A stretch of 64,000 bases of DNA from Crocinitomicaceae bacterium (GTDB lineage Bacteria > Bacteroidota > Bacteroidia > Flavobacteriales_D > Crocinitomicaceae), in contig JAJTCM010000001.1 in assembly GCA_021325675.1 (NCBI GenBank), forward strand, positions 62,001 to 126,000, in the 5' to 3' direction. Below are positions 47,048 through 48,577 of the stretch, piece after piece. Numbering within the stretch: position 1 is the first letter of the stretch; each line of letters starts with the position of its first letter. A program made the position numbers and the translations under genes. The notes beneath the pieces are model-generated. The model made no database searches, was not told the origin of the DNA, and saw only the letters and a program-made list of their open reading frames with translations.

Positions 47048-47112
47048 TGACGAAGATCATAGAACTGTTTGATTCGGATCATCTTACGGTGAAAATTGTG
47101 ACTGTACATTTG
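47048..47112 (+). promoter_or_regulatory. Promoter with two Crp/Fnr-like boxes ahead of the 47136 gene
   Basis: Box 1 TGAC-GAAG-ATCA (47048-47059, centre 47053.5), box 2 TTGAT-TCGG-ATCAT (47069-47082, centre 47075.5) and -7 TACATTTG (47105-47112). Box 2 resembles the FNR consensus TTGAT-N4-ATCAA. Box centres are 22 bases apart, and box 2 lies 29.5 bases before the -7, near -42 from the likely start. No -33 TTG. Confidence 0.6.
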
Positions 47113-47135
47113 TCTCATACTTACAAAAACTAATA

Positions 47136-48068
47136 ATGATGAGAAAATTACACACACAATTATTGCAGAAGAAAGCGGTCATGGGAAAATTCTCCCTGCT
47201 TATGTTTGCCGCATTGCTAAGCTCGGGAAAGGCCAAGGCCCAGTGGAACGATGCGCCACCGTCTGGTAAAATCGCTGCTCCGTCCAATGTGAGGGCCTGC
47301 GGTTCGTACAAATTGCCTGCCCTGCCGGAAGGAAATTATTTTCTCTGTCCCGGCGGAAACGGCAGGGTACTGACTCCCGGGCATGTGATTACCGAAACAC
47401 AAACCCTGTATTATTACGATGAATCCATGCGTGAAAAAAGCTTTACGATAACCATAGATTCTATGCCCGCTATTAATTTTCACCTTCATGGAAGCCGTAA
47501 TTCACCGGGAACTGTCTGGCTGCAAGCTACGCCTGACGCCGGAAAAATATACTGGTACGATGTTCCCGAGAGAGGGGCAGCCCTGGGCACAGGCACGGGT
47601 TTTACAACGCCATTTATCGCACAAACAACCACATATTTCGCTCAAGCCGTCAACGGATCGTGTGTTTCTGAAAGAACACCGGTCCGGGCGATGGTTGCTC
47701 CTTTGGTTTCCGGACATCAACAAGGAAAAGGAAAAAAGGACGGACATATTTGCGCGCCAATCTGTAACAATCATGCAGCACGAAGCGTTATGAAAGAAGA
47801 AACTGCGTTGCATGTAAATGAAAGCTTACAATCGGATTTTAGCCTGGAGGCTTTTCCCAATCCCAATACGGGTGATTTTATGCTCATCGCTTCGCATGAA
47901 GGTGAATACAAAATTTTTGGTGAGCAGGGGAAGCTGATCAAAACAGTACAGATTACAAAAGAAAATGAATTAAAGATCCGGGTGGATGGGCTCAAAAGCG
48001 GCGTCTATTTCGTTGTGGGCAATATTCACAATCAAACCATCATAAATAAAGTGATGGTCATCCAATAA
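47136..48068 (+). CDS. Secreted T9SS type A sorting-domain protein
   Basis: 310 residues (ATG at 47136 or 47139). A long signal peptide: the charged start MMRKLHTQLLQKKAVMGKF precedes the core SLLMFAALLSSGKAKAQ. The mature part has a beta-rich region with a cysteine-rich stretch (GKKDGHICAPICNNH) and, in PDAGKIYWYDVPERGAALGTGTGFTTPFIAQTTTYFAQAVNG, the Ig-like module common in Bacteroidota surface proteins. The last 75 residues are a type A sorting domain (LEAFPNPNTGDFMLIA, YKIFGEQGKLIKTVQI, LKSGVYFVVG). Probable low-oxygen or stress-controlled surface protein, given the promoter boxes. A truncated copy of its transcription unit follows. Confidence 0.82.
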   Translation: MMRKLHTQLLQKKAVMGKFSLLMFAALLSSGKAKAQWNDAPPSGKIAAPSNVRACGSYKLPALPEGNYFLCPGGNGRVLTPGHVITETQTLYYYDESMREKSFTITIDSMPAINFHLHGSRNSPGTVWLQATPDAGKIYWYDVPERGAALGTGTGFTTPFIAQTTTYFAQAVNGSCVSERTPVRAMVAPLVSGHQQGKGKKDGHICAPICNNHAARSVMKEETALHVNESLQSDFSLEAFPNPNTGDFMLIASHEGEYKIFGEQGKLIKTVQITKENELKIRVDGLKSGVYFVVGNIHNQTIINKVMVIQ

Positions 48069-48104
48069 AACAACAAACTTCTATCGCTGAATGTTAGATC
48101 AGAG

Positions 48105-48132
48105 AACCTTGGTTTAGGCCAGGGTTTTTTTG
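48105..48132 (+). terminator. Rho-independent terminator of the 47136 gene
   Basis: AACCTTGG (48105-48112), loop TTTAGG, CCAGGGTT (48119-48126), then T6. Nearly the same as the terminator at 48553-48577. Confidence 0.75.
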
Positions 48133-48166
48133 TTTAACTATGTTGCTCCGCGGGTGTTTTCCTCTT

Positions 48167-48232
48167 ATGACGAAAGTCATCTGTTCCCTTGATTCGGGTC
48201 ATCATAGCCTGGCGATAAGGGGCGTAACTTTG
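48167..48232 (+). promoter_or_regulatory. Promoter with two Crp/Fnr-like boxes ahead of the 48263 gene
   Basis: Box 1 is a perfect ATGAC-GAAA-GTCAT (48167-48180, centre 48173.5), box 2 TTGAT-TCGG-GTCAT (48189-48202, centre 48195.5), -7 TAACTTTG (48225-48232). Spacings (22 and 29.5 bases) are identical to the 47136 promoter. Confidence 0.6.
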
Positions 48233-48262: not shown

Positions 48263-48481
48263 ATGAAAAATCTGCAAACACGTCTGCTGCAAAAAATAGC
48301 CCTTCCGGGAAAACTTTTCCTGCTTATTTTAGCTGTGTTGTTCAGTTCAGTAAAAATCAAGTCCCAGCGGGCTGATGCAAGGAGTGTGAAAGGTACATAT
48401 CATGCAGAGCTAAGTAAGCCTGCGCCGGTTTATGAGTCCTTGTCCGCAGATTTTCATGGAAAAGTATCAGGAATGCGTTAA
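48263..48481 (+). CDS. Short exported peptide, truncated paralog of the upstream T9SS protein
   Basis: 72 residues from ATG 48263 (a longer frame to 48140 runs through the promoter). The signal peptide MKNLQTRLLQKIALPGKLFL continues LILAVLFSSVKIKSQ, clearly related to that of the 47136 protein (RKLHTQLLQKKAVMGKFSLL). The short mature part, with ARSVK and VYESLSADF, aligns with AARSVMK and VNESLQSDF just before the sorting domain of that protein, so about 190 residues of the middle and the whole sorting domain are gone. Promoter and terminator are intact, so it may still be made, either as decayed gene product or as a small secreted peptide. Confidence 0.65.
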   Translation: MKNLQTRLLQKIALPGKLFLLILAVLFSSVKIKSQRADARSVKGTYHAELSKPAPVYESLSADFHGKVSGMR

Positions 48482-48552
48482 ACGATAAAAATAAAACTGC
48501 TCCCAAAAACAAATAAAAAACAAAACCTTATCACTGAAAGCTTAAATTACAA

Positions 48553-48577
48553 AACCCTGGTTTCGGCCGGGGTTTAT
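48553..48577 (+). terminator. Rho-independent terminator of the 48263 gene
   Basis: AACCCTGG (48553-48560), loop TTTCGG, CCGGGGTT (48567-48574), then TATTG. Short T-run, so weaker than its upstream twin. Confidence 0.6.

Follow-up and report, generated by a model that had tools for sequence, protein, structure and literature searches.

Why do two neighbouring genes for secreted-looking proteins carry promoters built to the same plan, and which regulator reads that plan? Both genes lie in the window, the whole 64-kb stretch of Crocinitomicaceae DNA analysed here. The first gene (47136 to 48068, plus strand) encodes a 310-residue protein with a signal-peptide-like N-terminus, as judged by eye, an Ig_7 domain and a type IX secretion sorting tail (PF19081 and PF18962, both above the Pfam cut-off). 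The second (48263 to 48481, plus strand) encodes a 72-residue protein, also judged by eye to be secreted, for which no Pfam family was found at E 0.1. Each gene is preceded by two Crp-type boxes of the form TGAY-N4-RTCA with a gap of 10 bp, and by a -7 element, TAnnTTTG, 23 bp after the proximal box. The palindrome TGA-N6-TCA is present in both promoters. In the first promoter, the distal box TGACGAAGATCA (47048 to 47059, centre 47053.5) has imperfect arms, TGAC/ATCA, and is followed by the proximal box TGATTCGGATCA (47070 to 47081, centre 47075.5) and the -7 element TACATTTG (47105 to 47112). In the second, the arms of the distal box TGACGAAAGTCA (48168 to 48179, centre 48173.5) form a perfect palindrome, followed by the proximal box TGATTCGGGTCA (48190 to 48201, centre 48195.5) and the -7 element TAACTTTG (48225 to 48232). 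All of these elements are on the plus strand, and the interval from 47048 to 48232 takes in the whole first gene.

The geometry that the initial annotation had described was right to the base, with box centres 22 apart and the nearer centre 29.5 bases before the first base of the -7 element in both promoters. In mapped promoters of Flavobacterium psychrophilum, TAnnTTTG occupies -12 to -5, according to the accessible part of PMC9723704. Carried over to the window, this predicts starts near 47117 and 48237 and places the box centres at about -41.5, the class II activator position, and about -63.5. A scan for sigma-70-type promoters found no promoter-like pair at either window promoter beyond a chance-level match at 47110-47137, and Rfam gave zero matches within the 64-kb window.

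The spacing stands well above its controls across the genome. A single box is mildly enriched in the window (7 matches against a shuffle mean of 3.42, with 7 or more in 3 of 100 shuffles). Genome-wide, a box followed after 8 to 38 bases by TAnnTTTG occurs 17 times, 12 of them at a gap of 23 and the remaining five at 26, 30, 33, 37 and 37; the reversed-pattern control gave 3. Two boxes separated by 0 to 30 bases occur at 5 sites, all at gap 10, against a control of 0. Four of these five strict double sites have TAnnTTTG at 23 bp, and the fifth, the promoter of a histidine kinase gene, has TATTTTTA at that distance. If the window pair is counted as one event and the 31 gaps are taken as equally likely, the chance of four out of four at one gap is about 3e-5; for the box-to-minus-7 pairs, counted in the same way, 11 of 16 at one gap comes to about 5e-12. 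Allowing up to three mismatches, the full architecture has 14 matches, six with 0-1 mismatch and eight with 3, the latter possibly due to chance, and the control has 0. The earlier expectation of a genome-wide enrichment was thus borne out. The proposal that a Crp/Fnr-family protein acts at the predicted class II position gains from this enrichment and from the presence of such proteins in the genome, where PF00027 is found in 5 places, all above the cut-off, and PF13545 in 3, two of them above it.

Sites in this genome precede secreted proteins, a second kinase, the regulatory system itself and an ORF-less stretch that ends in a terminator-like hairpin. Beyond the window pair there are three strict double sites. 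One precedes the gene for a 1,823-residue protein whose start resembles a signal peptide (C1:142290), another a PAS histidine kinase gene (C1:148011); the third lies 3' of a regulator gene (C1:150627), so that two of the five flank the kinase-regulator operon. A sixth full-architecture site, on the minus strand at C9:139746-139810 (L129), has a distal box, TGAGGACAATCA, with one base changed and precedes a GAF/PAS-like histidine kinase gene (named by eye); this gene probably begins at the MTHP codon further downstream. Close to the site lies the start of a divergent kinase-like gene, also named by eye. At C1:150627-150849 (L057:5127-5349), beside the kinase-regulator operon, the double-box promoter leads into a candidate small RNA. 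No ORF of 45 or more residues was found behind this site. The predicted start is 150696, and 121 bases further on an imperfect hairpin (C1:150817-150840) is trailed by nine T, which makes a transcript of about 154 nt (C1:150696-150849) likely. The region folds somewhat better than shuffled sequences (z -2.0; 7 of 200 shuffles as good). The hairpin contains bulges and is missed by a simple terminator scan, and a search of 267 loci gave no convincing homologue of the candidate.

The operon between the two flanking sites consists of the PAS histidine kinase gene (C1:148011-149219) and, overlapping it by 4 bp on its 3' side, a gene (C1:149216-150271) for a 351-residue protein in which Pfam places a receiver, a cNMP-binding domain and HTH_Crp, each above its cut-off. 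The fusion gene is about 40 kb from the window promoters on the same contig. In a structure model of the monomer (mean pLDDT 80, pTM 0.48), receiver, beta-roll, long helix and winged helix follow in order, with weak packing of the domains, as the pTM indicates. Receiver and Crp regulator are one polypeptide, and a separate FixJ is absent from this arrangement. The only cysteine of the fusion, C51, is in the receiver domain; the Crp part has none, and so lacks the FNR-type cluster cysteines; the fusion is therefore not an FNR-type sensor. Among the regulators of 80 relatives' loci, the last 215 residues hold no cysteine in 50, one in 24, and two or three in 6. All 80 contain D[IV]MMP, with the phospho-acceptor Asp of the receiver, 78 have the ExxIR core in the recognition helix, and 77 have a kinase-like match immediately 5'; E316, R320 and D52 are invariant across 54 aligned regulators. 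The initial annotation had proposed a Crp/Fnr-family regulator, with reference to the binding site of FNR/DNR-type proteins. The Crp/Fnr family stands, but the likely regulator is a receiver-Crp fusion with its own kinase and not a plain FNR or DNR, and sensing would accordingly sit in the kinase.

Our main reading, to which we give a probability of roughly 60%, is that the tandem boxes are operators for the kinase-controlled receiver-Crp fusion in a low-oxygen-type circuit. Low oxygen or a linked redox signal would cause the kinase to phosphorylate D52 of the receiver. The regulator would then bind the two palindromes, which are two helical turns apart: a dimer at -41.5 would touch RNA polymerase in the manner of a class II activator, and another would sit at -63.5. 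The promoters would be switched on, including that of the regulator's own operon, giving positive feedback. We infer direct binding by the fusion, activation as opposed to repression, phosphorylation and the oxygen or redox signal from sequence.

Conservation was followed at the kinase promoter, because a search of 40 relatives with the first window protein gave matches in 38 but, among the matches listed, no full-length orthologue to follow; these were partial and mostly in larger frames. Of 30 fusion loci (L095-L124, one per genome, the genomes being akin and their counts not independent), 13 have the gap-10 double box 5' of the kinase gene: our own genome and 12 of 29 relatives, made up of three g15 genomes, eight g11 genomes (G102, G075, G118, G094, G147, G126, G014, G085) and one g10 genome (G084). 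Box scores in these 13 promoters are 6-8 of 8, the distal boxes of the g15 loci being imperfect (6 of 8). In 12 of the 13, at least five of the six fixed bases of the -7 element are present 23 bp on. The match is 6/6 in G075, G118, G147, G126 and G014, 5/6 in our own genome, the three g15 loci, G102, G094 and G084, and 3/6 in G085. In the other 17 loci no double box was found before the kinase within 1,500 bases, which counts against the main reading. The same design also occurs 3' of the fusion gene, before a universal stress protein gene, in G003, and a row of three boxes lies 3' of the fusion gene before the gene for a BON-like protein (named by eye) in G014. Two g11 genomes (L103, L106) have three boxes with 10-bp gaps, the last imperfect, 1062-1118 bases after the regulator start.

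A wider scan covered the best 80 of at least 587 loci around the regulator in Bacteroidota, including Dyadobacter, Runella, Rufibacter, Pontibacter, Fluviicola and others; the Fluviicola relatives belong to a family that we take to be Crocinitomicaceae. Strict pairs in these loci are mostly at gap 10 (44); gap 11 has 5, every further gap up to 60 has 2 or fewer, and the reversed-box control has 0. The distance from box to -7 element peaks at 23 (35 cases) and 45 (54), with 5 or fewer at any other distance up to 79. A relaxed form of the architecture gives 162 sites, against 17-22 when only the -7 gap is wrong, 7 when both gaps are wrong and 2-5 when only the box gap is wrong. Across 150 family genomes, the strict full pattern with at most one mismatch is found at 127 sites in 69 genomes, and its control at 0. 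Without the -7 element, a looser double box is present in 117 of the 150; among the 75 plus-strand matches listed, gap 10 is commonest (25), followed by gaps 16 (9) and 15 (6), and the reversed control gives about 48 matches in 34 of the 150 genomes. Gap 10 therefore dominates, yet the box pair alone is unspecific away from the regulator. The site is present in 37 of 51 genomes with a full-length regulator, as against 32 of 99 without one (Fisher p 2.6e-6, an indicative value as the genomes are related), in a regulator search that scored up to 13 candidates per genome. In the regulator-bearing genomes, 43 of 89 sites are within 25 kb of the regulator gene, where about 1.3 would be expected.

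The genes behind the sites in the relatives point to low oxygen. There, 132 relaxed sites, less 3 without an ORF and 9 in four duplicate loci (L254, L261, L265, L266), left 120 site-ORF pairs in 31 groups; one box pair can be counted in both directions. The largest groups are the kinase itself (21), DoxX (15) and universal stress proteins (15), along with fused cbb3 oxidase subunits with a FixO domain (12) and P-type ATPases with a CcoI-type N-terminal metal-binding domain (9). Three groups are uncharacterised families, of 120 (11 members), 126 (4) and 590 residues (2). Smaller groups are ATP-cone/Mrr (3), HemA (3), YgaP-like (3), Hsp20 (2) and rhodanese-thioredoxin (2), and 18 are single genes. 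When the 80 loci were queried with target families, a site lay upstream of 9 of 10 CcoNO, 11 of 14 CcoI-type, 10 of 10 DoxX, 19 of 50 Usp and 25 of 75 kinase genes (0.5-2.5 expected in each case), a comparison that favours these families because the queries were picked from genes with sites. In F. psychrophilum, oxygen limitation induces the cbb3 oxidase and haem-synthesis enzymes, as far as the available portion of PMC9723704 goes. The set of site-driven genes in the relatives reads as a low-oxygen regulon. With the shared design before the kinase operon, this suggests that the two secreted proteins of the window probably belong to a low-oxygen-type regulon as well.

Low oxygen or nitrogen oxides had both been proposed as the signal. 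The relatives' target genes favour low oxygen, indirectly, and offer next to nothing for nitrogen oxides. One representative was annotated for each of 20 of the 31 groups, the other 11 all being single genes; these representatives include one ScdA/hemerythrin-type protein and no denitrification enzyme, which weakens the case for a DNR/NnrR nitrogen-oxide regulon.

It is possible, though we consider it somewhat unlikely, that the fusion is the regulator but answers to another signal, such as membrane redox state, energy stress or nitric oxide, or that its binding represses. The PAS domain of the kinase can be argued both ways. FixL and DosP are its nearest solved relatives after 10jx, which is named only as a multi-sensor kinase. 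In FixL the haem-ligand His is H200 and the distal Arg is R220; the residue of note in DosP is M95. At the FixL haem-His position, this kinase and 72 of 77 kinases have His, a few by misalignment, which speaks for oxygen. At the distal-Arg position, however, this kinase has Ile, and the 77 kinases are mixed (M 26, L 11, I 11, T 10, R 8, others). At least three rows of this alignment (L187, L190, L192) are out of register over the PAS stretch but stay in the counts. A haem sensor in the kinase is plausible on these residues. The Usp, Hsp20 and DoxX genes would fit a general stress regulon as well, but the frequent sites before CcoNO and CcoI-type genes in the relatives speak against a signal other than oxygen, and the predicted position at -41.5 favours activation over repression. 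This genome itself gave no good match to cbb3 subunit I with the one CcoNO query used, the only match being an oxidase with 24% identity over part of the query, and this too suits a non-oxygen signal. To judge by that query, the classical cbb3 target is gone or too divergent here, and the low-oxygen label comes from the relatives.

Operators of this kind could also be bound by the genome's stand-alone FNR-like Crp protein (C1:509149-509835), alone or in competition with the fusion, and this protein would itself sense oxygen through an Fe-S cluster. The two recognition helices are nearly identical (GTATENLIRLL in the stand-alone protein, GTATETVIRTL in the fusion), and the stand-alone protein has six cysteines, at 10, 13, 38, 59, 112 and 206. 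The sites in the 32 genomes without a full-length fusion could be explained in this way; 7 of 38 such sites have a stand-alone Crp gene no further than 25 kb away, against about 0.6 expected, and the same-genus genome G002, which has only a stand-alone match at E 1e-30, has a site 2.1 kb from that gene. In our genome, by contrast, none of the five double sites on the contig comes closer than 358 kb to the stand-alone gene, whereas the fusion operon has its own two at either end, and both the frequency and the location of sites follow the fusion gene. We rate control by the stand-alone protein as unlikely, yet as a serious rival reading. In Rhizobium leguminosarum, FixK and FnrN share anaeroboxes, in the part of PMC7888657 that was accessible. 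By analogy, the fusion and the stand-alone FNR-like protein may both share operators.

The two window units look duplicated, to judge by their sequences. The N-terminal 39 residues of the two proteins align with a score of 86 (300 shuffles: mean 26.5, maximum 62), and the boxes of the two promoters are identical at 21 of 24 positions. Each gene also has a GC-rich hairpin with T after it on its 3' side, at 48100-48135 and 48552-48575, and the two hairpins are alike, as would be expected if the whole unit had been duplicated; the terminator scan lists the one at 48552-48575 and not the one at 48100-48135. The initial annotation had allowed that the exact spacing was simply inherited from this duplication, an idea that falls with the three further sites, before unrelated features, that share it. 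That the common architecture is nothing but a relic of gene duplication, or chance, is very improbable and was rejected, since the spacers between the conserved elements have diverged (12 of 33 positions identical), the same gaps recur before unrelated genes, the 80 loci peak at gap 10, and the controls are zero for the double box and the full architecture genome-wide and for the full strict pattern in the 150 genomes.

With the receiver-Crp fusion as the preferred regulator, the best reading of these sequences is a low-oxygen circuit like FixL-FixJ-FixK, with receiver and Crp regulator fused, that appears to have been rewired here onto secreted proteins; the rewiring is suggested by the missing cbb3 match and by sites before secreted and signalling proteins. 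The likeness to FixL-FixJ-FixK, and to hFixL-FxkR-FixK, extends to a FixL-related PAS kinase, a receiver, a Crp-type regulator and TGA-N6-TCA operators. Unlike FixL-FixJ-FixK, the fused polypeptide leaves no separate step from FixJ to fixK. Rhizobia with FnrN, as described in the accessible text of PMC7888657, also have cbb3 genes behind such operators, as the relatives do here, and a co-existing FNR-like protein that possibly shares the boxes. The rhizobial anaerobox is single, however, while here there are two boxes with centres fixed 22 bp apart; also unlike rhizobia, the promoters have Bacteroidota -7 elements, and in this genome secreted proteins lie behind the sites and the CcoNO query gave no good cbb3 subunit I match.

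Class II promoters of FNR, ANR and DNR resemble those described here in having TGA-N6-TCA at -41.5 (predicted in our case) and a regulator with a Crp fold and an E-x-x-x-R recognition helix. The fusion differs from FNR, ANR and DNR in its receiver domain and its cysteine-free Crp part. The FNR recognition-helix residues are E209, S212 and R213, and the fusion has isoleucine in place of the serine. Multi-site promoters of E. coli CRP likewise combine a class II site at -41.5 with one further upstream, close to the class I position of -61.5, in the portion of PMC5957442 available. Here the upstream site is at -63.5 instead, and its distance is the same across many promoters, as though two dimers were bound as a linked unit and not in free combination. 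MalR motifs have been applied to Crp homologues of Flavobacteriales and others, according to the accessible part of PMC8510549. Titles and abstract openings of the literature matches listed, from a collection with most subscription journals outside it, held no description of a receiver-Crp fusion with tandem boxes in Bacteroidota.

It is tempting to speculate further. In Bacteroidota, FixL/FixJ/FixK may have been condensed such that a phosphorylated receiver-Crp tetramer, in which receiver dimers join two Crp dimers, reads tandem palindromes exactly 22 bp apart. In this lineage the circuit may have outlived its cbb3 target and come to control a small RNA and surface proteins secreted by the type IX route. 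We hold this extended version only tentatively and think it unlikely to be right in full. If the low-oxygen circuit is real, there are several implications. First, low-oxygen control in Bacteroidota would gain an operator code and a regulon that can be put directly to the test. Second, a microaerobic two-component system could be compressed into two proteins. Third, a regulon could shift to secreted surface proteins once its classical oxidase target is lost. The double box with its -7 element is specific enough for targets to be predicted from sequence alone, given the 127 sites and zero control matches in the 150 genomes.

Several further matches were found in this genome. At C1:251326 (L007) and C9:127402 (L011), a single TTGAT-N4-ATCAA box stands 23 bp before TAnnTTTG; each adjoins a small Crp-like gene and is followed by a related short gene (FDKWRQAYDAAEEF / FKQWHEAFAAN). 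These two, single boxes beside small Crp genes, were rejected as members of the system and look like a separate, repeated local circuit. Single-box matches at C6:58400, C9:24029 and C9:74344 are within ORFs, may be chance and were also set aside. Finally, three partly degenerate boxes with 10-bp gaps occur on the minus strand at C8:351683-351769 (L136/L137), before a gene that resembles, by eye, the phenylacetyl-CoA epoxidase subunit PaaC.
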